From contig JADGAR010000007.1 of NCBI GenBank assembly GCA_015231915.1, forward strand, positions 27,337-91,336: DNA of 64,000 nt. Direction: 5' to 3'. The position numbers were made by a program, and so were the translations under genes. Under the pieces are notes generated by a model. That model was not told the DNA's origin and did no database searches. It saw nothing but the letters and a program-made list of their open reading frames with translations. This DNA is from Magnetococcales bacterium. GTDB taxonomy: Bacteria > Pseudomonadota > Magnetococcia > Magnetococcales > Magnetaquicoccaceae. Each line of letters opens with the position of its first letter. The first letter of the stretch is position 1. This document shows, in pieces, positions 31,264 through 59,771 of the stretch.

Positions 31264-32388
31264 ATGACTGTCCTGCCCGACACCCCGATCCGCATTCTGG
31301 TCATCAAGTCGCGCCACATCGGCGATGTGTTGTTGACCGGGCCTCTGCTCTCCACCTTGCGCCAGTGGTATCCGGAGTGCCGGATTTCGGTTCTGGTCAA
31401 GGAGGAGACCGCCCCCATGCTGGAGGGCCATCCCGACGTGCATGAGGTGATCCGCTTCCAGCAACGCACCACCGGGGAGAGCTGGCAGGCATTTCTGACG
31501 CGGCAGTGGCACTGGTGGCGGGAGTTGCGCCGCCGCCGCTTCGACTGGGTGATCAACACCACGGAAGGGGACCGGGGGATCATCGCGGGATTTCTGAGCG
31601 GCGCCCACAGGCGTACCGGACTCCTGAAACCGGGCAAGGGTCACTGGTGGCGCAAACGGCTGCTCACCGAAGCGGTGGCGCGCCGCTCCGGGTTGCGGCA
31701 CGCCGTGATGCACAATCTGGACATGCTGGGCTGGCATGACGAGACCCTGCGTCCGGACACACGGGTGCGCATCGCCTTCGACGCCCAGGACGAGGGAGTC
31801 GTCACCCGCACCCTGACCGCCCTGGGCTGGGATGGTGAACAACCCTTGGCCCATGTCCACCCGGTGGCACGCTGGCGGTTCAAGTGCTGGACCGACGCCG
31901 GCATGGCGCAGGCCATCGATTATCTGCAAGCAAAAGGCTTTGCCGTCGGCATCACCGCCAGTCCGGACCCGGCGGAAATGGCCAAGGTGCAGGCGATCCT
32001 CGCCTTGTGCCAAACCCGCCCGCTGGACCTGTCGGGCCGTTTCACCCTCAAGCAGGCAGCGGCCTTTGCCGCGCGCTGCCGGCTCTTCCTGGGGGTGGAT
32101 ACCGCGATGATGCACGTTGCCGCTGCGCTGGATGTCCCGGTGGTGGCGATCTTCGGTCCCAGCATGGCCTATGAATGGGGACCCTGGCCCAACGGCTGGC
32201 AGGGGGAAGGGGCGACCCCCTACCCGAAAATACGCGGCTTCCAGCAGTGCGGTCCCCACCGCGTCATCCAGAAGAACTGGCCCTGCGTCCCCTGCGGTCG
32301 CGACGGTTGCGGCGGGAGCAAGGTCAGCAACTGCCTGACGAGGCTCGAATGGCGCGAACTGCGCAGCGTGCTGGACTCACTGTCATGA
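31264..32388 (+). CDS. Glycosyltransferase family 9 (heptosyltransferase-like)
   Basis: Predicted lipopolysaccharide-core sugar transferase. The 374-residue GT-B protein has the N-terminal ILVIKSRHIGDVLLTGPLL, typical of heptosyltransferases (KxxxxGDxxxxxP), and the C-terminal sugar-nucleotide site LFLGVDTAMMHVAAALDVPVV followed by AIFGPS. A Cys-rich end (WPCVPCGRDGCGGSKVSNC) resembles the RfaQ subgroup. The ATG at 31264 is chosen because it opens the fold; it is 10 bases after the icd terminator. Its stop overlaps the next start as ATGA. Confidence 0.88.
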   Translation: MTVLPDTPIRILVIKSRHIGDVLLTGPLLSTLRQWYPECRISVLVKEETAPMLEGHPDVHEVIRFQQRTTGESWQAFLTRQWHWWRELRRRRFDWVINTTEGDRGIIAGFLSGAHRRTGLLKPGKGHWWRKRLLTEAVARRSGLRHAVMHNLDMLGWHDETLRPDTRVRIAFDAQDEGVVTRTLTALGWDGEQPLAHVHPVARWRFKCWTDAGMAQAIDYLQAKGFAVGITASPDPAEMAKVQAILALCQTRPLDLSGRFTLKQAAAFAARCRLFLGVDTAMMHVAAALDVPVVAIFGPSMAYEWGPWPNGWQGEGATPYPKIRGFQQCGPHRVIQKNWPCVPCGRDGCGGSKVSNCLTRLEWRELRSVLDSLS

Positions 32389-35363
32389 ACCCCGTCCGCA
32401 CGCGTCGGCTGCTGTTGACGCTGTTTTTTCTCTCCGGCGTGGCGGGGCTGATTTACGAATCGATCTGGACCCATTACCTGAAACTCTTTCTGGGCCACGC
32501 GGCCTATGCCCAGACCCTGGTGCTGGCGATCTTCATGGGGGGGATGGCCCTGGGGGCGTGGCTGGCCAGCCGCCTGACGCCACGCTGGAAAAACCCCCTG
32601 CTGGCCTACGCCCTGGTCGAGGGGATGATCGGCATCGCGGCGCTGCTTTTTCATCCGCTCTTTGTCCATTTGCTGCGCTTCTCCTTCGACACGGCGATCC
32701 CCGCCCTCCCCGGTCCTGCCGCGATCCATCTCTACAAGTGGGTGGCGGCGAGTGTGATGATCCTGCCCCAGACCATTCTTTTGGGCATGACCTTTCCCCT
32801 GATGTCCGGGGGGGTGCTGCGCATGTACCCGGCCACGCCCGGCGGTACGCTCTCCTGGCTCTATTTCACCAATTCGGCGGGCGGGGCGCTGGGGGTGTTG
32901 GCCAGCGGCTTTTTCACCATCGACCGTTTCGGCCTCGATGGCACCCTGGCCGCTGCGGGTGTGCTGAACCTGCTGCTGGCTTTGCTGATCGCCTGGCGCT
33001 TCCGGGCAGAGGCGCCACCCCTGCCCCCTCCCCGGGTCGCGCCCCGGGAACGGTCCCGTCTGCCGGTTCTGCTGCTGGCCACCGCCTGTCTGACCGGGGC
33101 CGCCTCCTTCATCTACGAGATCACCTGGCTGCGCATGCTCGGCCTGGTGCTGGGCGCCTCCACCCACGCCTTCGAACTGATGCTGAGCGCCTTCATCCTG
33201 GGCCTGGCCTGCGGCGGCTGGTGGCTGGCCCGCCGCCTGGACCGGTTGACCCGTCCCCTGCCCTTTCTGGCTGCGGTCCAGTTGCTCATGGGCGCCGCCG
33301 CCCTGGCCACCCTCCCCCTCTACGGCCACGCCTTTCACCTGATGGAATGGCTGTTGTCCACCCTGGCCCGCGACCGGACCGGCTACCTGCTCTTCAACCT
33401 GGCCAGCCACGGCATCGCGATGGCGATCATGTTTCCCGCCGCCTTTTGCGCCGGCATGACCCTGCCCCTGATCACCCGCATTCTCATGACCGAGGGAAGT
33501 GGGGAAAAAGAGATCGGTCGGGTCTACGGGATCAATACCCTGGGGGCGATTCTGGGGATCCTGGCCGCGGTGCATCTCGCGCTGCCGCTGCTGGGCGTCA
33601 AGGGCGCCCTGATGAGCGGAGCGGTGCTGGACATCGGGCTGGGCCTGCTCCTCGTGCCGCCCGCGTGGCGCCGCATCGCCTGGCCGGTCGCCGTTCTCCT
33701 GTTGCTGGCCATTGCCCGCCTGGTGGAGTTGAATCCTCATCTGATGGCCTCCGGGGTCTACCGGGACGGCAAGCTTTTGAGCGGCGAACAACGGGTCTTG
33801 AGCCACATCGACGGCAAGACCGCCACCGTTTCGCTGACCGCAAGCCAAGACGATGTCTACTCGCTGCGCACCAACGGCAAGATCGATGCCAGCATCTCCA
33901 TGCCCCCCACCGAACAGCGCACCCTCGACGAGGTGACCATGACCCTCACCGGGGCGCTGCCGCTCCTCCTGCACCCCGCACCGCGAACCGTGGCCAACAT
34001 CGGCCTCGGTTCCGGCATGACCAGCCATGTGGCGCTCGCCGACCCGCGTGTGCAACGCCTCGACACCATCGAGATCGAACCGGCCATCGTGGCGGCTGCC
34101 AGACGCTTCACGCCCTACAACGACCGCCTGTTCGCCGATCCGCGCAGTGCCATTCACATCGAGGACGCCAAGACCTTTTTCTCCACGCGCCAGTCACGCT
34201 ACGACATCATCATCTCCGAACCCTCCAATCCGTGGGTCAGCGGCGTGGCCGGGCTGTTCACGCGGGAGTTCTACCGCGATCTCAAACGCCATCTGGCCCC
34301 GGAGGGCATGCTGGCGCAATGGCTGCAGGTCTACGAATTCGACCTGGGGCTGTTGCAATCGGTCTTCAAGGCGCTGGCCGGGGAGTTTCCCCATTTCACC
34401 ATTTATGCGGTGGATCACGGCGACCTGTTGATCCTGGCCTCCAACTCGCCGATTCCGGACCTTGCGGACCAGCCCGGCTGGCCAGTGCCCGCTCTGGGAC
34501 CGGATCTGGCGCGTGTCGGGGTGTTCCATCCGCAGGATTTGCGTTTGCGCTGGGTGGGAGACGAACGCTTTTTCGCGCCATTTCTGCAATTTTCGCCTGC
34601 CCCGGCCAACTCCGACTACGCCCCCTATGTGGATCAGCATGCGGCGCGGGCGCGGTTCATGGGGGGCACGGCGAACGCGATCTTCTTTCCGGTCAACGAG
34701 CTGCTGCCCCTGCGCCCGCTGTTGGCGGGACGCGACACCTCGACGGGCAGGACCCTGGTCACCCCCACGGCGCTTTCGCCATTCTCGGTCGGGCCGTTCG
34801 TGGCCACCGAGCTGCTGGCCCGTGTGACCGGACGCCCCAGGGAGGCCACCGACCACCCCGGCGACATCCAGGCGCAATTGGACAGGATGATCCGGGCGCT
34901 GGCCGAATGCCGGGTGTTGCCTGCCCATGGCGACAAGGTGTATCTCCTTTATCAACTGGCGGTGATCGCCCTGCCCCATCTGCATCCCGTGGAGTTGGAG
35001 CGCCTCTGGCCGGCCCTTGGGGCCATGCCGTGCGGCCAGGGGTTGCAGGGGCACGAGGCGCGCTGGCTGCGGCTGTTTGCGGCCATCGGGCGGCGTGATC
35101 CGGCGGCCATGGCGACCGAGGCGCTCCCCCTGCTCGAGGAGGGGGCGCCACTGACCAGGACCCGTGGCGCCTATCTGTTCGGCGTGGGCATGCTGGCGCT
35201 TGTGGCGCAGAACCGTCATCAGGAGGCCATCGCCTTCTGGGATCGCCATTTCCGGGAGCGGATCGAACCCCGCAATCCCCCCGCCCTGGTCTATCAATAC
35301 CTCCGGGCCGTCGCCGAGGCGGGGGCAGGTGATTTACCTCTTGCAAGCATCCACTACAAGTGA
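32385..35363 (+). CDS. Large membrane protein with spermidine-synthase-like domain
   Basis: Belongs to the fused transporter-like/spermidine synthase group, whose substrate is mostly unknown. The 992-residue protein has an N-terminal membrane part with many helices (FFLSGVAGLIYESIWTHYL, repeated as TGAASFIYEITWLRMLGLV), a Rossmann aminopropyltransferase-like domain at about residues 500-680 (NIGLGSGMTSHVAL, IEIEPAIVAAARRF, IIISEPSNPWVSGVAGLFT), and a helical C-terminal region. The last dozen codons (from about 35326) include TTA, CTT and AGC, unlike the rest, and the island starts right after; the original C-terminus may have been replaced. It is coupled to the GT9 gene by ATGA. Confidence 0.82.
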   Translation: MNPVRTRRLLLTLFFLSGVAGLIYESIWTHYLKLFLGHAAYAQTLVLAIFMGGMALGAWLASRLTPRWKNPLLAYALVEGMIGIAALLFHPLFVHLLRFSFDTAIPALPGPAAIHLYKWVAASVMILPQTILLGMTFPLMSGGVLRMYPATPGGTLSWLYFTNSAGGALGVLASGFFTIDRFGLDGTLAAAGVLNLLLALLIAWRFRAEAPPLPPPRVAPRERSRLPVLLLATACLTGAASFIYEITWLRMLGLVLGASTHAFELMLSAFILGLACGGWWLARRLDRLTRPLPFLAAVQLLMGAAALATLPLYGHAFHLMEWLLSTLARDRTGYLLFNLASHGIAMAIMFPAAFCAGMTLPLITRILMTEGSGEKEIGRVYGINTLGAILGILAAVHLALPLLGVKGALMSGAVLDIGLGLLLVPPAWRRIAWPVAVLLLLAIARLVELNPHLMASGVYRDGKLLSGEQRVLSHIDGKTATVSLTASQDDVYSLRTNGKIDASISMPPTEQRTLDEVTMTLTGALPLLLHPAPRTVANIGLGSGMTSHVALADPRVQRLDTIEIEPAIVAAARRFTPYNDRLFADPRSAIHIEDAKTFFSTRQSRYDIIISEPSNPWVSGVAGLFTREFYRDLKRHLAPEGMLAQWLQVYEFDLGLLQSVFKALAGEFPHFTIYAVDHGDLLILASNSPIPDLADQPGWPVPALGPDLARVGVFHPQDLRLRWVGDERFFAPFLQFSPAPANSDYAPYVDQHAARARFMGGTANAIFFPVNELLPLRPLLAGRDTSTGRTLVTPTALSPFSVGPFVATELLARVTGRPREATDHPGDIQAQLDRMIRALAECRVLPAHGDKVYLLYQLAVIALPHLHPVELERLWPALGAMPCGQGLQGHEARWLRLFAAIGRRDPAAMATEALPLLEEGAPLTRTRGAYLFGVGMLALVAQNRHQEAIAFWDRHFRERIEPRNPPALVYQYLRAVAEAGAGDLPLASIHYK

Positions 35364-35425: not shown

Positions 35426-36454
35426 ATGACTCAACTCATTCTTTATAGCAGCGAAGACGGGCAGACCCGGGTGCAACTGCGGATTGAGCAGGGGACGGTC
35501 TGGCTCACGCAACTGGAAATTGCGGAACTGTTCCATGCCACCAAGCAGAATATTTCACTGCACTTGAAGAACATTTATCAAGAAGGTGAACTGGACCCCA
35601 CCGCAACTGTCAAGGAATCCTTGACAGTTCAAACCGAAGGCGCCCGCGACGTGCGCCGCACGGTCACACTGTACAACCTGGATGCCATTCTGGCGGTGGG
35701 CTACCGCGTGCGTTCGCCACGCGGGGTGCAGTTCCGCCGCTGGGCCAGCACGGTGTTGGCGGAATACCTGCACAAGGGTTTCGCCATGGACGACGAGCGG
35801 CTCAAGAATCCCGACGGTCGCCCGGACTATTTCGACGAGATGCTGGCGCGCATCCGCGACATTCGCGCCTCGGAAAAACGCTTCTATCAAAAGCTGCGCG
35901 ACCTGTTCGCCCTGGCCGCCGATTACGACAAGAGCGACCAGGCCACTCAGCAATTTTTTGCCACGGTGCAAAACCTGCTGCTGTATGCCGTCACGCAGCA
36001 GACCGCCGCCGAGCTGATTCTGAGCCGCGCCAACCCGCAGGATGCCCACTTTGGCTTGCTCCACTGGCAGGGTGCGCGGGTACGCAAGCAGGACATCCTG
36101 ATCGCCAAGAATTATCTGACCGAGGACGAAATCGACACCCTCAACCGGCTGGTGGTCATCTTTCTGGAAACCGCCGAACTGCGCGCCAAGCGGCAAACCG
36201 TTACCAGCATGGCATTCTGGCGGCAGAACGTGGGGCAAATCATCACCACAAACGGCTTCCCCCTGCTTGCCGGAGCGGGATCGGTGAGCCATGCCCGCAT
36301 GGAGCAGCAGATTGCCCTGCGCTTTCTGGACTTTGACCAAAACCGCAAAATTCAGGAAGCGCAAGCAGCGGATGAGCAGGACCAGGCCGAGTTGCAGGCG
36401 CTGGCAAACAGGATCAAGCACCGCCAGGGGAGACGGAATGAGCGCCCCCAATGA
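35426..36454 (+). CDS. RhuM-family protein
   Basis: RhuM-like proteins are widespread on genomic islands; their biochemical role is not established. The 342-residue protein opens with the family's QLRIEQGTVWLTQLEIAELF, which looks like a DNA-binding helix-turn-helix, then ISLHLKNIYQEGEL, TVTLYNLDAILAVGYRVRSP and GVQFRRWASTVLAEYLHKGF. The C-terminal half is helical, with YLTEDEIDTLNRLVVIFLETAEL. It is the first gene of the lower-GC island and is followed 45 bases later by the SLATT-like gene on the same strand. Some RhuM relatives are linked to Fic or toxin modules, but no Fic motif is seen. Confidence 0.88.
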   Translation: MTQLILYSSEDGQTRVQLRIEQGTVWLTQLEIAELFHATKQNISLHLKNIYQEGELDPTATVKESLTVQTEGARDVRRTVTLYNLDAILAVGYRVRSPRGVQFRRWASTVLAEYLHKGFAMDDERLKNPDGRPDYFDEMLARIRDIRASEKRFYQKLRDLFALAADYDKSDQATQQFFATVQNLLLYAVTQQTAAELILSRANPQDAHFGLLHWQGARVRKQDILIAKNYLTEDEIDTLNRLVVIFLETAELRAKRQTVTSMAFWRQNVGQIITTNGFPLLAGAGSVSHARMEQQIALRFLDFDQNRKIQEAQAADEQDQAELQALANRIKHRQGRRNERPQ

Positions 36455-36499
36455 AAATACGCCCAATAACATTAATAAAATTCACAAAAAGGAATTGCC

Positions 36500-37354
36500 A
36501 TGACCGATACCGACAATGCCACCGCCGCAACAGACGCGCCTCTCGTGCTGCCTTGCTGGGCGTGCCTCAAGGATTGTCCCGTCTCCTCATCGTGCCCGAC
36601 AACCGCCATCACCGATGAGGAGCCTGCCAGCATATCGCGCAATGATCGTGCGAAGCACCCGAATCTGGCCACGCCTGTTTCCCCCGCGATGGCGTCACAA
36701 AAAATGCCAAAATGTCTTGCATTGTCGATTAATTATTATATATGCGTACAAAATTATTATGAATTGGCGCATGAATGGTATGCAAACAGAAAAAATATAC
36801 TTTCTAGGCGCTCAAAAATTCTAAAATTTTTGTCACTGTTCTTTGGCAGTTTCGGGGCCATCATCCCCATCTCCTCGCCACTGATCACTTACTTTAAAAA
36901 ATCTGCAGATATTAACAGTGCTTTCCCTTTGGATTCCTTTGGCTATGTATTTCTCGCCATCTCCGGCGCCCTGGTTTACTACGACAAAATGTTCGGCGAC
37001 TCCACCGGATGGGTGCGCTGCATCAATACCATGAACCAACTGAAAACCCTCGCCACCCGCCATGAAGAGCAGTGGATGCAGATCCGCGTCTCGCTGGAAT
37101 GCCAGACACAGCAGGACTTGACCCCTGACAACCGCCTTTTTTTCCTGCAGCAGGCCAAGGAGATCGTCAAAATCGCCACGCAATTCAAAAACGATATCCT
37201 CGTGTGCATGCATCAGGAGACCCAAACCTGGATCGAGGAGTTCCAAAGCAACCTGGCCCATCTGCAGCGCAAAGCCGATGAGGCACTGACGCGCGGCGCA
37301 CAAACCACCCCGGCGCAAACCACCCAAACGCAAACCACCCCGACAACCAAATAA
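36500..37354 (+). CDS. Two-TM SLATT-like membrane protein, possible defence effector
   Basis: Resembles SLATT (SMODS- and SLOG-associating two-TM) effector proteins, which are thought to form membrane pores in phage-defence systems and which occur beside reverse transcriptases. The 284 residues hold a polar Cys-containing N-terminus (CWACLKDCPVSSSCP), then a helix leading to two membrane segments (about residues 112-135, FLSLFFGSFGAIIPISSPLI, and 146-162, FGYVFLAISGALVYYDKMFG), a cytosolic helix GWVRCINTMNQLKTLATRHE, and a Thr/Gln-rich tail (QTTPAQTTQTQTTPTTK). AAGGAA precedes the ATG. It lies about 100 bases before the retron protein gene. The family assignment is by pattern only; role in the retron is inference. 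Confidence 0.65.
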   Translation: MTDTDNATAATDAPLVLPCWACLKDCPVSSSCPTTAITDEEPASISRNDRAKHPNLATPVSPAMASQKMPKCLALSINYYICVQNYYELAHEWYANRKNILSRRSKILKFLSLFFGSFGAIIPISSPLITYFKKSADINSAFPLDSFGYVFLAISGALVYYDKMFGDSTGWVRCINTMNQLKTLATRHEEQWMQIRVSLECQTQQDLTPDNRLFFLQQAKEIVKIATQFKNDILVCMHQETQTWIEEFQSNLAHLQRKADEALTRGAQTTPAQTTQTQTTPTTK

Positions 37355-37456
37355 TCTCTCCTCCATAGTTACTTCCATGCGGGTGGATGCCAGAGCATGT
37401 AAACAGCCGTCGAATGCGTGGCAATTGTGACAAAGCAGAAGTACACACGGATTGCA

Positions 37457-38725
37457 ATGATGACCAATTTTCTGCGACTTTCTGAACACCAAAAGAGTCA
37501 GCAATGGATTGCTCAATTTTATGACAGCAAAGACCGGGCGTTAGCGACCCAGTTGATCAATCAGCTCAAACTCGTTTCCAATCGCGAGTTCGAGTGCGGC
37601 ATTGAGCAAGCAATTACTCGTTTACACGATGATTTGAAGGCAAGAATCGCGGTCTATCCAGTAGCTCCACCTATTCCCAATGAAATTGCGGGTTACGATC
37701 CATTCACAGGAGGCATACCGAGAGAGGAGAACACCACCTCCCGTGCAGTCGGTCGTCGCCGCCAGTTCGGCAGTGAAGACAGGGTTGGACACATTCTCAA
37801 AAACATTCAGGAACGATTCAAACGCGACAAAAACTCTACTTCAAGCATTGAATGCTGTCCAACATTGATTCAATTAAAAACCCAAAAAATTTATAATATC
37901 GTTTTGGTAGACGATATTTGTGGTAGCGGTAAGCGCATTACCGATTACTGGAAAAAGTTGATTCCGCGCCATATTAAAAGCCTCCTATCGTTTAAGCGGT
38001 ACAATCTTTGGATAATCCTCTATGCAATCACACGTAATGGGAAAAATGTTATCTTTAAAACAATGCCAAATTTTCCGCATTCTAATCTGATTACTGTTCT
38101 ACCGGAAATCCATTGGCATGAATTTCTGACCTCTGAATTGCGCGGACTCTGCACATCCTACGCCAGAAAATTTAGAATAGGGTCATCTGGATTGGGATAC
38201 CGAGATAGCTTATCTAATATTGTTTTCGAGCATGGTTGCCCCAACAATTTGCCAAAAATTTTATGGATGAACATCAATGGATGGTCAGGATTGTTTCCAA
38301 ATCGATCAATCCCGAATGAGATGCGTCCTTGCTTCGACGCTGACGGATCTGCACGGGCATCCGAGGTTCTGTGGCAAGTCAATCAACCTGGGCTGGCATT
38401 GAGCTTGTTGGATGCTTTGGACCATACAGTTCCTTTGACGACTGAGCAACGAATAATGCTCGCAATGCTGGGGTTGCGTCTACGGGGTGTTTCGGAAAAT
38501 AATTTAGCTGTGAAACTTTTTCTAACTCATCAACAATGCAAAGAAGCTTTGCAAATACTCATAGAAATGGGCTTGTATGATAAAAGATTAACCCATGTAA
38601 CCCAATTGGGGAGGGAGTTTGTTTCTCGCTTCCGCGAACGTTTTGGACCGGCTCGTCGTTTGCGTGCGGTTGCGAAGAGTCCAGAGAGTTATTATCCTCA
38701 GCAGTGTGAAGGGGAACTTCAATAA
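37457..38725 (+). CDS. Retron-associated phosphoribosyltransferase-like/winged-helix protein
   Basis: Accessory protein of a type III retron. Taking ATG 37457 (a GTG at 37418 and an ATG at 37460 are in frame), the 422-residue protein has at about residues 149-160 the PRPP-binding signature VLVDDICGSGKR, preceded by a region rich in basic residues, as in phosphoribosyltransferase-like folds. The C-terminal part (about 330-405) reads as a winged helix: PLTTEQRIMLAMLGLRLRGV, then HQQCKEALQILIEMGLYD and VTQLGREFVSRF. PRTase and winged-helix proteins are the known partners of type III retrons; here the two are fused in one chain. Codon use is AT-richer than the core genome. The last codons lie inside the a1 repeat of the retron RNA. 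Confidence 0.8.
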   Translation: MMTNFLRLSEHQKSQQWIAQFYDSKDRALATQLINQLKLVSNREFECGIEQAITRLHDDLKARIAVYPVAPPIPNEIAGYDPFTGGIPREENTTSRAVGRRRQFGSEDRVGHILKNIQERFKRDKNSTSSIECCPTLIQLKTQKIYNIVLVDDICGSGKRITDYWKKLIPRHIKSLLSFKRYNLWIILYAITRNGKNVIFKTMPNFPHSNLITVLPEIHWHEFLTSELRGLCTSYARKFRIGSSGLGYRDSLSNIVFEHGCPNNLPKILWMNINGWSGLFPNRSIPNEMRPCFDADGSARASEVLWQVNQPGLALSLLDALDHTVPLTTEQRIMLAMLGLRLRGVSENNLAVKLFLTHQQCKEALQILIEMGLYDKRLTHVTQLGREFVSRFRERFGPARRLRAVAKSPESYYPQQCEGELQ

Positions 38726-38941
38726 CTTGGCAAAACTGATCGGAGGTAATGGCCGGTCGGTACCCATGGAGACGCAGTGATGTGGTTCCATGAACGGGGC
38801 GCGGAGTCCGCAGTCCTGGAGACAGCTTTCTTGAGTTTGAGGATGGGTGGTCGACCGTCTATTGTTTCGATTCTCACAGACAGGCCGACCACCCACCCTG
38901 CGCAGCGGGGTTGAAGCAAGAGAATGGAGTTCCCCCTTCAC
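38706..38941 (+). ncRNA. Predicted retron msr-msd RNA
   Basis: The 198-base gap between the accessory gene and the RT gene plus its edges fits a retron RNA. The a1 repeat GTGAAGGGGAACT (38706-38718) is matched by a2 AGTTCCCCCTTCAC (38928-38941), complementary apart from one extra C, and pairing can be extended inward by a G-T wobble and two pairs. Within, the msr part has hairpins 38765-38770/38787-38792 (CATGGA/TCCATG) and 38801-38811. The msd part is a long hairpin: 38841-38853 pairs with 38886-38898 (twelve pairs and one mismatch), continued by 38855-38860 with 38878-38884 (one bulged A), loop about 17 bases. The priming G was not identified with certainty. The ends are approximate. Confidence 0.72.
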
Positions 38942-40111
38942 AATTATCTCAAGAGCTTGCGCGATATTGGCGCACGCGACGGGTATATCAAAGCCATTCA
39001 ACGTAACGCTAAGCCACTGGCCGATTGTGGTCTGCCGGTTATTCTGACCCTCGGACACTTGGCTCACATAACGGATGTGTCTCATGGTATCTTGACCGAC
39101 ATTATCAAACGCCAGATTGATCCATACCGCGTATTCGCAATCCGAAAACGCAATGGTGGCAAGCGATTCATTTGCGTTCCAGAGACAGGTTTGCTCAATG
39201 CGCAGCGATGGATTCATGATGAAATTTTATGTTCTCTTGCTGCGACAAAAAATCTATCTTGTCATGCTACAGCTTATGCTCCAGGCTGCAGTCATGTCAT
39301 AAACGCAAAACGTCATGTTGGTGCCGCATGGATTTTGAAATTTGATATCACCAGATTTTTTGAGTCGATTTCGGAGCGGCAGGTATACCGTGTTTTTCGT
39401 GGCCTCGGATACAGGTCCCAGGTGGCGTTTTGCCTGACCCGTTTATGCACCAGGGTATTACCAACGAACGTTGACCATCGTCTGCTTCGACATACCAAAC
39501 GCTGGCAAACAGGTGATCAACGCAACCAACGCAACTTTTCTGGGGCACGGGTCATAGGACACCTCCCTCAGGGTGCACCAACCAGTCCAATGCTGGCAAA
39601 CCTGGTATGTATACCACTAGATACTGACATGCAAAACATTGCTGCTCGTGAAGGGTTGACGTTTACCCGCTACGCAGATGACATGACCTTCTCTGGCGAG
39701 ATGCTTGATCGTGCGGCGGCGGTCAAAATTTCCAGAGAAGTATCGATTGTCGTCGGTCGTTATGGCTTCGGCATCAATCTGCAAAAAACCAGCATCGCCA
39801 AAAATGGTGGACGCAAGATTGTGACTGGTTTGTCGGTGGACGGCGACGTTGTACGCCTGCCACGTGCCTACAAGGATGCTATTCGCCAGGAGTTATTCTA
39901 TCTCGACAAGCACGGCATCCAGGAACACTGTGCCAGAATCGGTCACAAAAATCATCTGTCCTATCTACTGCGCCTCGCGGGCAGGATTCGATACGCGACT
40001 TCAATCGAACCTGTCATTGGACAACGGATGATGCATCTATTTCTGCGCATTTTCCCGACATTCCAGGAAACAGAGCGGTTGATTTTCCAGGATTTTGTCA
40101 GCGATGATTGA
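38924..40111 (+). CDS. Retron reverse transcriptase
   Basis: Copies the msd part of the adjacent RNA into multicopy single-stranded DNA. The 395-residue protein has retron hallmarks: the NAKRH motif at 127-131 before the first catalytic region, motif A KFDITRFFESIS (Asp 141), HLPQGAPTSPMLANL (LPQG at 214-217), the catalytic FTRYADDMTFSG (YADD at 250-253), NLQKTSI, and the retron-typical VTGL at 300-303 followed by RLPRAYKDAIRQELFYLDKHG. All catalytic residues are present. The ATG at 38924 lies just before the a2 repeat, with only a weak AAGCAAGAG upstream. The partner gene and RNA precede it. Confidence 0.93.
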   Translation: MEFPLHNYLKSLRDIGARDGYIKAIQRNAKPLADCGLPVILTLGHLAHITDVSHGILTDIIKRQIDPYRVFAIRKRNGGKRFICVPETGLLNAQRWIHDEILCSLAATKNLSCHATAYAPGCSHVINAKRHVGAAWILKFDITRFFESISERQVYRVFRGLGYRSQVAFCLTRLCTRVLPTNVDHRLLRHTKRWQTGDQRNQRNFSGARVIGHLPQGAPTSPMLANLVCIPLDTDMQNIAAREGLTFTRYADDMTFSGEMLDRAAAVKISREVSIVVGRYGFGINLQKTSIAKNGGRKIVTGLSVDGDVVRLPRAYKDAIRQELFYLDKHGIQEHCARIGHKNHLSYLLRLAGRIRYATSIEPVIGQRMMHLFLRIFPTFQETERLIFQDFVSDD

Positions 40112-40145
40112 TGATCCCAGCCATTCGGGAATCCATAAAAATTCC

Positions 40146-40175
40146 TTGACATGAACCTATCCCCCAGGATAGGAT
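40146..40175 (+). promoter_or_regulatory. Promoter with CsoR/RcnR-type operator for dmeR-dmeF
   Basis: TTGACA (40146-40151) and TAGGAT (40170-40175) are 18 bases apart. Between and over the -10 lies an inverted repeat CCTATCC-CCCA-GGATAGG (40156-40173) with a C tract at its centre, the style of operator bound by RcnR/DmeR/CsoR repressors. The regulator's ATG is at 40183, so the leader is very short; AGGA at 40171-40174 may serve as ribosome site. Confidence 0.75.
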
Positions 40176-40182
40176 ATCCCCC

Positions 40183-40455
40183 ATGAACGACAAACACACC
40201 CACCACCCCGCCATCGTCACCCGCCTGAAACGGGCCTCCGGTCATTTGCAAAAAGTGATCGCCATGATCGAGGCGGACGAACCATGCGAACAGGCGGCTC
40301 AGCAACTCCAGGCAGTGGTCAATGCCATCGCCACTGCCAAACGCGAATTCGTGGCCGACCACATCGAGCACTGCCTGGACGTGCAGGAAGGAATGACCAC
40401 GCGCGACATGCGCACCACGGTCGAAGAGATCAAAGCCATGGCGAAATATCTTTGA
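40183..40455 (+). CDS. CsoR/RcnR-family metal-sensing repressor (DmeR-like)
   Basis: Small all-helical repressor that leaves DNA when it binds metal. The 90-residue protein has the DUF156 core: RLKRASGHLQKVIAMIEADE, Cys 35 in EPCEQ, and VADHIEHCLD with His 60 and Cys 64. Cys35-His60-Cys64 is the Cu(I)-type CsoR ligand set, whereas nickel/cobalt RcnR has His at position 64; the N-terminal His-rich HTHH could add ligands. The partner transporter is DmeF-like, which would suggest nickel or cobalt. The metal is thus uncertain. It is preceded by a C-tract operator and followed after 14 bases by the exporter. Confidence 0.88.
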   Translation: MNDKHTHHPAIVTRLKRASGHLQKVIAMIEADEPCEQAAQQLQAVVNAIATAKREFVADHIEHCLDVQEGMTTRDMRTTVEEIKAMAKYL

Positions 40456-40469
40456 AAAGCGGAGGAATC

Positions 40470-41819
40470 ATGCACGAAACCACCCCCACCCACGGCGAGC
40501 ATGGTGGCCCACTGCTCCGGCATGCCGACGGATTCGTCGAGATCAGCGTCTTCGAAACCGGGGTGCCGCCCCGCTTCCGGCTCTATTTCCTGGACAACCA
40601 ACGGCACCCCCTCCCCCCCCCAGCCGCCGACTCCCTCACCCTGGAGACGGAACGACCCGGCAACGCACGACAGGCATTCTCTTTCCGCCGGGAGAACGAC
40701 TACCTGGAATCCACGGACGACATTCCGGAACCCCACGAATTCCTGCTGCGCGTGACGCTGGACCAGGGTCGCCAACGACTTTATTGCCTGTTCACCGAGG
40801 AAGGCCACGACCACGGTCATGAGGAAGAAGAGCATCACGACCATCACGACCATCATCATGATCATGACCATGACCATGGACACGGGATCATGGCATTTCT
40901 GAAAAACACCTTCGGCCACTCCCACGACGTGACCGACAAGGTGGACTCGGTGATGGAGTCCAGCGAAAAAGGGATCCGGGCGCTCAAGATCTCCCTGGTG
41001 GGACTGGGGCTTACCGCCATCCTGCAAGTGGTGGTGGTGATCTACTCCGGCTCCGTGGCCCTGCTGGCGGACACCATCCACAACTTCGCCGACGCCGCCA
41101 CCAGCCTCCCCCTGTGGGTGGCCTTCGCCCTGGCGAAACGGGGGGCCAACCGCCGTTTCACCTATGGCTACGGCAAAAGCGAAGACGTGGCCGGGGTGAT
41201 CATCGTCGGCGTGATCTTCTTTTCCGCCTGCGTGGCCGGTTACGAGGCATTATTGAAATTCATCCACCCGGAACCCATGACCCACCTGGGATGGGTGGCC
41301 ATGGCGGCCCTGATCGGCTTCATCGGCAACGAGGCAGTGGCGATCTACCGGATCCGGGTCGGCAGGGAGATCGGCTCCGCCGCCCTGATCGCCGACGGCC
41401 ACCACTCGCGGGTGGACGGTTTTACCAGTTTGTCGGTGCTCATCGGCGTGGCGGGAACCTGGCTGGGATTTCCCCTGCTGGACCCCATGGTGGGGGTCGG
41501 CATCACCATCGCCATTCTGTTCATTGTCCGTGACGCGGCGCGGGCGGTCTGGCTCCGCCTGATCGACGGCATCGAACCGGAAATCCTCGACGAGATCACC
41601 CACGCCCCGGCCCATGTTCCGGGCGTGCAGGAGGTGCGTTCCGTTCGGGCGCGCTGGATCGGCCACAAGGTCCACGGCGAAGTGGCCGTCGTGGTGGATC
41701 CCGACCTGCCCATGGCCGTGGCGGACGCCATCGGTCAGGCCGTGGAGCGCGCTTTGCAAGACCATGTCCGACTCCTCGACACCGCCGTGGTGCGGGTCAC
41801 CTCTGCAACCGGGGCATGA
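40470..41819 (+). CDS. CDF-family metal exporter with His-rich loop (DmeF-like)
   Basis: Cation diffusion facilitator in the inner membrane, predicted to export cobalt or nickel (or zinc) in exchange for protons. The 449-residue protein starts at 40470 behind GGAGGA. An N-terminal soluble domain of about 110 residues precedes an extreme His/Asp-rich stretch (about residues 110-140) and then six membrane helices with SVALLADTIHNFADAATSLP (metal site HNFAD) and LIADGHHSRVDGFTSL (HxxxD). A C-terminal cytosolic domain ends the protein. The extra N-terminal domain is unusual for DmeF. Its stop overlaps the next gene's start. Confidence 0.9.
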   Translation: MHETTPTHGEHGGPLLRHADGFVEISVFETGVPPRFRLYFLDNQRHPLPPPAADSLTLETERPGNARQAFSFRRENDYLESTDDIPEPHEFLLRVTLDQGRQRLYCLFTEEGHDHGHEEEEHHDHHDHHHDHDHDHGHGIMAFLKNTFGHSHDVTDKVDSVMESSEKGIRALKISLVGLGLTAILQVVVVIYSGSVALLADTIHNFADAATSLPLWVAFALAKRGANRRFTYGYGKSEDVAGVIIVGVIFFSACVAGYEALLKFIHPEPMTHLGWVAMAALIGFIGNEAVAIYRIRVGREIGSAALIADGHHSRVDGFTSLSVLIGVAGTWLGFPLLDPMVGVGITIAILFIVRDAARAVWLRLIDGIEPEILDEITHAPAHVPGVQEVRSVRARWIGHKVHGEVAVVVDPDLPMAVADAIGQAVERALQDHVRLLDTAVVRVTSATGA

Positions 41820-55647: not shown

Positions 55648-55884
55648 GTGCGAGGCAAAATGCTTGGCAAATTGGAAATGCGATGCAGTGGATGGTCTGA
55701 GCAAAACGCACTTGTAGCGAGTGGGACATCTGCACCAAAATTCATCACCCAAGCGGTGATGCGGGCGGGCTGGTCCCAAGCCCAAATCCGGAAGGATGTC
55801 AGCTTCACTGCAGGCACCATCGTGGTGCGCGGCAAACTGGCCAACCGTGACACCTACCAGGAACCCGGAAAGGCACTTAAATGA
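55648..55884 (+). pseudogene. Remnant of a type I restriction HsdR gene (N-terminal fragment)
   Basis: The 78-codon frame contains KFITQAVMRAGWSQAQIRKD, VSFTAGTIVVRGKLANRD, which matches the opening of type I restriction endonuclease R subunits (pattern: I-x-P-A-L-x-x-A-G-W, then Q-I-R-E-E-V-x-F-T-x-G-R-I-I-V-R-G-K). The remaining 900 or so residues, including the nuclease and helicase, are missing; homology ends near 55845. The stop overlaps the ATG of the RT-nitrilase gene as ATGA, so the fragment may still be translated and coupled to it. It could also have been recruited as a small leader protein. Confidence 0.6.
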
Positions 55885-58800
55885 GCATTATTAAAGAAAA
55901 ATATCGACGACTTGCCCCGAGATTGTCATATTTGGCAGACGAGGTAGTTTTGACCCAGGCATGGAAAAAATCACAAAGATATATTCGCAAAATCAATTGG
56001 TATGCAGACCTATTAGAGTTGGACCAATCAGCCATCCTTTTAGAAGAGCGAATTGGCGCATGGCAAGAGCAAATCAAGAGATCAAATATAACCAACACCG
56101 ACATGCGTCTTGTGCCAGCCCCAAAAACGCATCGCTGGGGATTTGAAAAGAGTGTGTGGAAACCGACGGAGAAGGGAAAAGATGGTGCGATCAAGCCGAT
56201 CATGCTGCGCCCATTAGCTCATATTAACATTAAGGAGCAGACCATGGCCACCGCCGCCATGCTATGCTTGGCCGACTGCATCGAAACAGCACAAGGGGAC
56301 ACGTCGGAAACTGATTATATTAAGGCACGTAACATGGGTATACACAGTTACGGTAATCGACTTTTGTGTACGTTTGACAAAGAAAATCTTGGTAAGAATG
56401 ATCGACCACTTGCCACATTTAATTGGGGTAACTCGGAGACATATAGCCGCTATTATGTTAATTATAGACGCTTTCAAGCGCGTCCCCACTTTATTGCTGA
56501 GCACATACAAGACCAACTCAGTGAAAATGATGAAATCTTTATAGTCAAATTGGATATTTCCTCTTTCTATGATTGCATATGTCGCGCGACGTTGATTGAT
56601 TGTTTAAAAAATGAATATAAAGAGTTTATAAAAAATTATTCTTCAGTCAACACAAAAAGCACTAAAGAATTCTGGAAGGTGTTACAGTTAATTATGAATT
56701 GGCAATGGGATAAAAAAGATGATTGTTATGAAATATATTTAAAAAATGGAGTTCTTCCAAAGGGACTTCCGCAAGGCCTCGTGGCTAGTGGTTTTTTTGC
56801 AAATGCCTACATGTTAAAATTTGATCGGTTCATTAGCAGTAATCTTAAAAAGACATTAGAAGAATATAATATTATGCCTGATGACGACCCATCGCAAATA
56901 TTATCAAGCATTACATTACATGATTATTGTCGCTATGTTGATGATATACGTTTAGTTATCAGCATAAAACAAAAAATAGATTTTTCTGAAGAAAATGCAG
57001 TAAATTATATAACAAAATTTTTGAATCATTGCCTAAAAATAAAAACAGACTCTAATGACACTCAATACAAATTATCAATCAATAATGACAAAACAGAAAT
57101 AACCTCATTTCGTCTTGCAGCAAGTCAAACTGGAGTGACTGCCCGCATGGCATTGATTCAAAAAAGTCTGAGCGGCCCGACGGACATGGATGCACTCCGT
57201 GAAACCACAGCCGGTTTGAATGAATTGTTGACCGCAACTGACCATTTTGACTGTTGTACCGACCCCAAAGGCGAAATCACCCATCCACTTGCCAAAATCA
57301 TCAATCAAAAATCAGAAGTTAGAGACGATACGTTAAAGCGGTTTGCCGCCTACAGATTAAAATACACACTCCGCCGTCGCAGAGGAATGACGGATCTGAA
57401 CGTCATACTGGAAACCGGTGTCAGCGCGGGAGAAGCCATAGACCATGAAATGGAAACTTATGCCCGCAAAATGGTACGCGCTTGGTCTCATGACCCCGCT
57501 TTGGTACCCGTACTTCGCTTGGCTATGGATCTCTTCCCCAGCCATGATTTGTTGCGCCCTGTTCTGGATTCTTTGCGCGAAACGATTGCACCATCACGGA
57601 GAAAAAACGCCCAGGAGGGTACCTTGGTCGCTTGGTATGTCATTGCCGATTTACTGAAGGCTGGAGCGGTGGAAACAGGCATCTATGCAGGAGATGAGGA
57701 ATTACCAGCGACTTCAAACCAAAAAAAATATCAATCTACACTATTGGAATTTACCAAAGCCTATGTATTCAAAAACAAAAATGCGCCATGGTACGTTTTA
57801 CAACAAGCTTTGTTGCTATTGGTCACTGTTGAACCTTGCCCAGCATTTCAACTAACAAACAGTTCAAAAGAAATTGATCACTATCAAACACTTTTGAATG
57901 CCGCATCGTACACGAGCTGTCAGCCATTGGATCAGGATACTCTTGTTATACATATGTTGTTCCAACAAATACATAAGAATGAAGATCGATTTGCAAGATG
58001 GTTAATAGATTCTCTGGCTAATTCTGAACATTCAGATCGTATAAAGCTGTTAGAAACAGTCAGCTTTAACCGTCCAGACATCATGTCAGCAGTACTACAA
58101 GAACTCAAACGTCGAAAACAGAATTGGATTGATCCAAATCACGAATATTTGAAAATTCCATCTGGTATTCTTGATACTTCCAGAGACTTAAGCGAACTTG
58201 ATGGTACAGAAGTACCTTTGTGGAAAATCATCACACATGCTGACAACCCGTTTAGACATGAAATTCCCTGGTTGCGGCTTGCAAAAGCATTGATCAGGAT
58301 GCTTGCTGGACACGAATACAATAATGAACTAATTATGCGTTTTTCCTTGCGCAATATAAAGATCAAAGCAAACAATTGGAAAGAATTGAATAAACCTGGA
58401 TACTCAACAAATTCTATAAAAATTATTTTTGATTCTGAAGGATCGGCAGACCCCAGACTTGTCAAGCCTGATTGGTGTGACAGGAAATGGGTTCGATTCT
58501 ACGTCTTGGGTCGTTTACTTCGTTCCGCCATCACTGGAGAGGAAGATTTTACTATTACACCTTATCTCCACCGCCAGGATTGGAAAGCTTACCATGGCAT
58601 GCGCAACAGCTGGTACACCCGTCGGATGGGTATGATGCATTCTCCGGAAGCCCTTGGTGGGGAAGCAGCACCATTCTCTCCTTGGGTCAGCGAAATCCTA
58701 ATGCGGTTATTACAATGGCCAGGAGCAAGAGCAGATACAAAGCTTATTGAAAATTTTGAAACCATTCAGTCATTACACGATCTGCGCAGAATGATCAACA

Positions 58801-59771
58801 GACGCATTATTGAATTATCAAAATTGTTTGGAAGAGCTTCAAACCTGCCAGTCTACCCAATCATCATTGGACATACTCTCCGCCAGGATGGAGTCTTACG
58901 CGTAGCCCTTGCCCAAACGCTGATGCCTAAACAGTCGGATTTCACTACGCTTGATCCATACCTCAACCATTCCACCTACCGACCTGTACATCGAAATCAT
59001 CTGACAACCGTTTGCTCATTGATAGTGTCACAGTTGAAAGCACAAAACGCTGCCGAAAGCAATACTACTAAAGAAAAATCGACAGCTTTGGCGGATTTGA
59101 TCATTTTCCCTGAGCTTTCGGTACATCCAGACGATATAAAAATTCTAAAAAGCCTCTCTGATGCTACAAATGCGATACTTTTCTTTGGTATGACGCCCTT
59201 TAAAATTAAAAATGAAAAAATCATCAATACAGCTTGTTGGCTCATCCCTGATCATCGTTCGACTGGACGCTCATGGGTTATCAGACAACAAGGAAAATGG
59301 CATCAGACAGTAAACGAGCAGGAACTTAAAATTGTTCCGTGGAGGCCTTACCAAGTAATTATTGAACTGCCAAAAAATAATCACAGCAAACGTGGATTCA
59401 GAATAACTGGCGCTATTTGTTATGATGCTACCGATTTGAATTTAGTAGCAGATATGAAAAATTTGTCAGATCTTTTTGTTATTACAGCTATGAACAAAGA
59501 CGTTCAAACGTTTGATAATATGGTGGCGGCACTGCATTATCATATGTATCAACATGTAGTGCTTGTAAACACAGGAGAATTTGGAGGATCCACAGTTCAA
59601 GCACCTTTTAAAGAAAGGCATGATAAGCTTATTACTCATTTGCATGGCGGTGGGCAGATTGGTGTGAGCATCTTTGATATTGACTTGATGGATTTCGGCC
59701 CGGATGCCACTTTTGCAGAGACAAAACAACTGAAAAAATTCCCACCTGCAAACTTCACGAGATTCACATAA
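55881..59771 (+). CDS. Reverse transcriptase-nitrilase fusion, DRT type 1 (UG1-like)
   Basis: Defence-associated reverse transcriptase of the type 1 architecture (unknown-group 1 RT with a C-terminal nitrilase). The 1296-residue protein has an RT domain with FIVKLDISSFYDCICRATLI (motif A Asp 225), LPKGLPQGLVASGFFANAYM (LPQG 296-299), CRYVDDIRLVISIK (YVDD 352-355) and SINNDKTEITSF. A long helical middle region follows. The last 250 residues form a nitrilase-like hydrolase: IIFPELSVHPDDIKIL (Glu 1078) and ITGAICYDATDLNLVADM (Cys 1180), with GEFGGSTVQAP near the end; the triad Lys lies between but was not pinned down. All catalytic residues seem intact. The gene is strikingly AT-rich against its neighbours, indicating transfer. 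No second conserved gene is beside it. Confidence 0.88.
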   Translation: MSIIKEKYRRLAPRLSYLADEVVLTQAWKKSQRYIRKINWYADLLELDQSAILLEERIGAWQEQIKRSNITNTDMRLVPAPKTHRWGFEKSVWKPTEKGKDGAIKPIMLRPLAHINIKEQTMATAAMLCLADCIETAQGDTSETDYIKARNMGIHSYGNRLLCTFDKENLGKNDRPLATFNWGNSETYSRYYVNYRRFQARPHFIAEHIQDQLSENDEIFIVKLDISSFYDCICRATLIDCLKNEYKEFIKNYSSVNTKSTKEFWKVLQLIMNWQWDKKDDCYEIYLKNGVLPKGLPQGLVASGFFANAYMLKFDRFISSNLKKTLEEYNIMPDDDPSQILSSITLHDYCRYVDDIRLVISIKQKIDFSEENAVNYITKFLNHCLKIKTDSNDTQYKLSINNDKTEITSFRLAASQTGVTARMALIQKSLSGPTDMDALRETTAGLNELLTATDHFDCCTDPKGEITHPLAKIINQKSEVRDDTLKRFAAYRLKYTLRRRRGMTDLNVILETGVSAGEAIDHEMETYARKMVRAWSHDPALVPVLRLAMDLFPSHDLLRPVLDSLRETIAPSRRKNAQEGTLVAWYVIADLLKAGAVETGIYAGDEELPATSNQKKYQSTLLEFTKAYVFKNKNAPWYVLQQALLLLVTVEPCPAFQLTNSSKEIDHYQTLLNAASYTSCQPLDQDTLVIHMLFQQIHKNEDRFARWLIDSLANSEHSDRIKLLETVSFNRPDIMSAVLQELKRRKQNWIDPNHEYLKIPSGILDTSRDLSELDGTEVPLWKIITHADNPFRHEIPWLRLAKALIRMLAGHEYNNELIMRFSLRNIKIKANNWKELNKPGYSTNSIKIIFDSEGSADPRLVKPDWCDRKWVRFYVLGRLLRSAITGEEDFTITPYLHRQDWKAYHGMRNSWYTRRMGMMHSPEALGGEAAPFSPWVSEILMRLLQWPGARADTKLIENFETIQSLHDLRRMINRRIIELSKLFGRASNLPVYPIIIGHTLRQDGVLRVALAQTLMPKQSDFTTLDPYLNHSTYRPVHRNHLTTVCSLIVSQLKAQNAAESNTTKEKSTALADLIIFPELSVHPDDIKILKSLSDATNAILFFGMTPFKIKNEKIINTACWLIPDHRSTGRSWVIRQQGKWHQTVNEQELKIVPWRPYQVIIELPKNNHSKRGFRITGAICYDATDLNLVADMKNLSDLFVITAMNKDVQTFDNMVAALHYHMYQHVVLVNTGEFGGSTVQAPFKERHDKLITHLHGGGQIGVSIFDIDLMDFGPDATFAETKQLKKFPPANFTRFT

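Follow-up and report, generated by a model that had tools for sequence, protein, structure and literature searches.

Type III-A retrons (PADLOC retron_III-A), among them Retron-Bpu1 and Retron-Ppe1, share a reverse transcriptase (RT) clade, an effector with PRTase and winged-helix parts, and a noncoding RNA (ncRNA) located between effector and RT (PMC12548924). Retron effectors are restrained by RT-msDNA and are released once phage factors perturb the msDNA (PMC12548924). Both named members came from isolates that had been chosen for showing a retron ssDNA band. Retron-Bpu1 makes RT-DNA in E. coli and gave no defence there against 12 phages; Retron-Ppe1 could not be transformed into E. coli, and the authors presume toxicity (PMC12548924). 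How the PRTase effectors of retrons act has been stated to be unknown (PMC9122126), and these effectors are listed as uncharacterised in a 2026 commentary (PMC13158370). A PRTase was also proposed as the anti-phage effector in the DprA-PRTase defence system of P2-like phages (PMC9122126); this system, likened here by description only, differs in having a DprA-like sensor and neither an RT nor an ncRNA.

We analyzed a 64,000-nt stretch (the window) of a metagenome-assembled genome (MAG) from the magnetotactic order Magnetococcales (contig of 95 kb; genome of 4.0 Mb in 133 contigs). A preliminary description had placed a type III retron at 37457-40111, and the effector, the gap and the RT with its motifs were all found there. 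Since III-A profiles are the best matches of the RT as well as of the effector, and the RNA is backed by compensatory changes, this call was upheld. Judged from sequence comparison, the locus is almost certainly a complete type III-A retron. Our overall reading, to which we give a probability of about 0.85, is that of a complete type III-A retron working as a three-part, toxin-antitoxin-like anti-phage system. It is a divergent further representative of an existing retron type and no novel class: when compared with members outside the order, the effector is 19-25% identical (multiple alignment) and the RT 33-43% (local matches), and the RNA sequence is too diverged to align over its length. 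The III-A comparison set comprised 17 loci, with 13 effectors aligned and 16 loci used for the analysis of the a1/a2 stem. An RT scan detected copies in the Magnetococcales MAGs HCHbin5 (L014, 85% identity) and nW5bin3 (L015, 58%), and genome searches assigned matching copies to the same family and genus as the window. The order effector, RNA, RT was read directly from the window; all parts lie on the + strand in an operon-like arrangement, with the following features (supporting evidence in brackets):

37366..40130, + strand: whole cassette, approximate ends (alignment break against the relative G097, locus L034)
37457..38725, + strand: effector gene, 422 aa from ATG (PADLOC PDLC02933, Pfam PF24390 and PF24409, Foldseek)
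38705..38723, + strand: a1 arm of the a1/a2 stem, within the last codons of the effector gene (inverted repeat I3; duplex energy)
38726..38923, + strand: intergenic part of the msr-msd RNA, exactly 198 nt (folding; pair conservation in L015)
within 38726..38923, + strand: 4-bp helix CTTG/CAAG, then the predicted branch G 38730 (position)
~38735-38761, ~38765-38792 and ~38795-38818, + strand: msr stem-loops SL1, SL2 and SL3 (RNA folding)
38844..38892, + strand: long msd hairpin (inverted repeat I5; DNA fold of the complement; two-sided changes in L015)
~38893-38909, + strand: short hairpin (RNA folding)
38924..40111, + strand: RT gene, 395 aa (PADLOC PDLC02944 RT_III-A, 5.4e-146; PDB sequence matches)
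38924..38942, + strand: a2 arm, inside the first RT codons (MEFPLH) (inverted repeat, duplex energy, fold)

The effector matched the PADLOC profile PRTase_III-A PDLC02933 over its full length (residues 6-419; 284 bits, 4.5e-85). Pfam PRTase-CE (PF24390) was found at residues ~15-281 with 92.5 bits and wHTH-PRTase_assc (PF24409) at the C-terminal residues ~335-416 with 38.2 bits, both above the cut-off of 27. These profiles confirm the two parts that had been proposed for the protein and that mark type III-A effectors. An in-frame GTG at 37418 is a possible alternative start; the alignment with the Magnetococcales relative L015 begins near the ATG. An AlphaFold model built from 13 homologues was modest (mean pLDDT 72). 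Its top Foldseek matches in the PDB were type I PRTases (HGPRTs; probability 0.98-0.99), with E-values of ~5e-3 (4.5e-3 for the best match) and low TM-scores. In a viral library, a PRTase-CE protein ranked first (E 6.9e-5). Since this pLDDT and these E-values and TM-scores are weak, the PRTase fold is assigned mainly from the sequence profiles. The effector of type II-A retrons (Ec86/Eco1) joins an NDT-like base/ribose-handling fold to a winged helix. The effector in the window likewise joins a base/ribose-handling fold to a winged helix, the fold being PRTase-CE and not NDT.

The presence of both parts in one chain had been singled out in the preliminary description. The fusion is real; as a special feature it was rejected, because nearly all of the 17 III-A loci carry a one-chain effector. 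Where the effector is complete it is a single ORF of ~410-420 aa, and all 13 aligned effectors match PRTase_III-A. Most complete loci consist of the effector, then ~170-205 nt, then the RT. Fused and separate forms both appear to be catalogued already, since the PADLOC collection includes long profiles that extend into the winged helix (368 and 393 positions) as well as short profiles of 267-290 positions.

The claimed PRPP-site motif is present as VLVDDICGSGKR at effector residues 149-160 and contains the paired acids DD and the glycine loop GSG, within a PRTase fold matched with weak E-values. VDD precedes the glycine loop in the window copy, in L014 and L015 from Magnetococcales, and in L018, L019 and L028. 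Other III-A relatives have TD or AD at this position, and many are without the first acid (TDFIGSG), indicating that the canonical acid pair is dispensable across the family. The second Asp (D153), GSG and R160 are invariant in the effector alignment. With VDD kept and these residues invariant, the window effector, which has two acids where many relatives have TD, seems nearer to the canonical PRPP site than many of them; this is compatible with activity without proving it.

Two views of the effector can be weighed on these residues. The toxic step might be a PRTase-type reaction, i.e., use of PRPP, or base/ribosyl transfer or removal on a nucleotide or nucleic acid. This is the least certain part of our reading and falls somewhat short of an even chance; the earlier wording, that the effector alters nucleotides or nucleic acids through its PRTase fold, is a guess. 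Alternatively, the fold could be catalytically dead, the effector being a DNA-binding or transcriptional switch or a scaffold whose PRTase domain serves solely as a nucleotide sensor, in the manner of PurR and PyrR, regulators with a PRTase fold. The loss of the first acidic loop residue in many III-A relatives and the weak resemblance of the winged helix to MarR/OhrR regulators (profile search, E = 0.0067) would suit such a regulator. The retention of both acids in the window copy and the five loci named above, as well as the invariance of D153, GSG and R160, argues against it, and we consider a dead fold unlikely, if worth keeping in mind.

An Rfam search of 36000-41000 gave zero matches even at E <= 1, so the RNA was assessed by comparison. 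Taken as a whole, the ncRNAs have diverged too far for their MAFFT alignment to yield a consensus fold, and the support comes from the Magnetococcales trio and from folds of the individual loci. The hairpins claimed for the 198-nt gap were confirmed (z = -2.79 against shuffles for the gap alone). The terminal complementary repeats also exist; they lie inside both coding regions, making the RNA element with both arms 38705-38942, or ~238 nt. This element folds with -107.9 kcal/mol (z = -5.88; 0/200 shuffles as good), and as DNA the complement of 38826-38917 adopts a single long hairpin (z = -3.85). The a1/a2 duplex has -31.4 kcal/mol for a 52-nt window pair, with 2/1000 shuffles as good. Thus, the repeats, msr stem-loops and msd hairpin of a retron ncRNA adjoin the RT gene. 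Among the three Magnetococcales copies the gap sequence is strongly conserved and the fold is common to all. The most distant copy, L015, keeps 74/79 pairs (counted after a manual one-base realignment of its 3' end), and slid partners leave 25-35 pairs. It shows 8 two-sided compensatory changes, distributed over the a1/a2 stem, SL2, SL3 and the msd hairpin. One of them changes G-C to A-T in the a1/a2 stem, where the effector residue changes from Glu to Arg and the RT residue from Pro to Ser; the paired change occurring though both proteins change residue fits conservation of RNA pairing at this site.

The location of a1/a2 in the coding ends recurs: in 15/16 III-A loci the effector end pairs strongly with the RT start. 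Over the 16 loci, true pairs averaged -36.9 kcal/mol versus -22.4 (sd 6.0) for swapped pairs. The exception is L005, in which 8 swapped pairs were as good, perhaps due to a miscalled RT start. In most relatives, a1 overlaps the sequence that encodes the conserved YYPxQLR tail at the effector C-terminus. Beside a1/a2 stands a helix of 4 bp, after which comes an unpaired G; the helix is TCTA/TAGA in several relatives and CTTG/CAAG in the window, and because of this position G38730 is the predicted branch G. The arms of type III-A RNAs could be dual-purpose, with a1 the last effector codons and a2 the first RT codons, and the window effector with its near-canonical PRPP loop a candidate for an active PRPP enzyme. 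Taken together, this proposal is speculative and rather doubtful, and the overlap with both coding ends may already have been described in earlier work. If the arms were dual-purpose, the three parts would be physically interlocked and the gene order not rearrangeable, and RNA folding could limit access to the RT start codon. With its PRPP loop, the window effector would be a candidate for demonstrating PRPP enzyme activity in type III effectors. The recurring overlap and the PRPP loop with both acids are the more useful general points from this locus.

In the same-genus relative G097 (L034), a RhuM-SLATT gene pair is directly followed by CsoR-CDF, and a short spacer replaces the retron. The alignment of the window with G097 breaks near 37366 and 40130. 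In G093, the neighbouring genes are different and a tRNA-Ala gene lies upstream of the retron. The empty G097 site and the different G093 neighbourhood indicate that the cassette is made up of effector, RNA and RT only. G097 having the same site without the retron, the cassette is read as gained or lost as one ~2.8-kb unit. The locus offers a clean cassette of three parts whose insertion site is defined, and it adds a retron from Magnetococcales, an order for which we found no retron report in the literature searched.

The possibility that the retron is a decayed, non-working passenger in a genomic island draws on its surroundings and its distribution. The G+C content drops from ~65% to ~45-50% at the cassette, a dip that also spans the RhuM-SLATT genes, and the RT is present in only 3/48 order members, the retron thus missing from most relatives. 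Against this stand the two intact ORFs, the intact RT motifs and the RNA pairing kept by compensatory change in L015 at 58% RT identity, and we regard decay as very improbable. A copy that does look decayed is found in L028 (1136-2388, - strand), a III-A retron in which the PRTase and winged-helix ORFs are in different frames and the RT frame ends early; it is apparently frameshifted and decaying.

The scan of viral sequences with the effector alignment detected two distant III-A loci. These are L018 and L019, IMG/VR viral contigs carrying a PRTase-winged-helix effector and an RT; type III-A retrons therefore also occur on predicted viral or proviral DNA. Scans of genome contigs with the single effector sequence, of phages with the effector and of viral sequences with the RT gave no match.

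Retron RTs carry the signature motifs NAxxH, YxDD and VTG. All three are present in the window RT, where NAKRH (127-131), LPQG, YADD (250-253) and VTGL (VTG at 300-302) were found in the 38924-40111 ORF as previously noted; NAKRH, YADD and VTG are invariant across the three Magnetococcales copies. The best PADLOC profile was PDLC02944 RT_III-A (486 bits, 5.4e-146), placing the RT in the III-A clade. The five top profiles were all RT_III-A (486, 294, 276, 265 and 261 bits); other retron types reached at best 229-230 bits (RT_II-A 229). Scores were under the cut-offs of the NCBIfam retron families. The group II intron RT model gave 50 bits (cut-off 300), DRT models gave <=38 bits, and a DGR model was absent among the RT profile matches listed; neither a group II intron nor a DGR RT was the best match. 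By sequence, the closest solved chains in the PDB were retron RTs, with the type II-A Ec86 RT (7v9u) first. That the gene encodes a group II intron, DGR or DRT-type RT beside an unrelated nucleotide-metabolism or regulatory PRTase gene, with a terminator or leader in the gap, is hardly credible: the RT does match generic RVT_1 and, weakly, group II, Drt2 and Drt3a models, but III-A profiles score 261-486 bits versus 50 for group II, the gap holds a conserved RNA with compensatory changes, and the same effector-RNA-RT trio recurs across distant Pseudomonadota.

For the type III-A retron, abortive infection of the retron type is probable by analogy with studied retrons. The RT would prime from the predicted branch G38730 and copy the msd from ~38916 leftward, yielding an msDNA of ~80-90 nt whose main hairpin would be formed by the complementary DNA strand of 38844-38892. 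The RT-msDNA complex would keep the effector inactive, probably via its winged helix. Once a phage product alters, binds or degrades the msDNA, the effector would be freed or activated and would stop the infected cell.

Upstream of the cassette, the window contains a RhuM-family gene (35426-36454, + strand; PF13310, PADLOC candidate PDC-S05) and a gene for a SLATT_2 membrane protein (36500-37354, + strand). The SLATT gene was considered as a part of the retron and rejected, as it is found in G097 with RhuM without the retron. Reading by eye also showed no SLATT gene among the ORFs of 90 aa or more that lie upstream of the retron in L015, and plasmids gave no match to the SLATT protein. Because the pair sits at the same G097 site without the retron, RhuM-SLATT may be a separate candidate defence pair. 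The window also encodes a 1296-aa RT-nitrilase protein (55881-59771, + strand). Its full-length match to Drt1a, an anti-phage protein of DRT class 1, scores 1356 bits and marks it as a second anti-phage RT system (DRT1), 16 kb downstream of the retron. Just outside the low-G+C island, an MFS-like membrane region is fused to a spermine/spermidine synthase domain (32175-35363, + strand).
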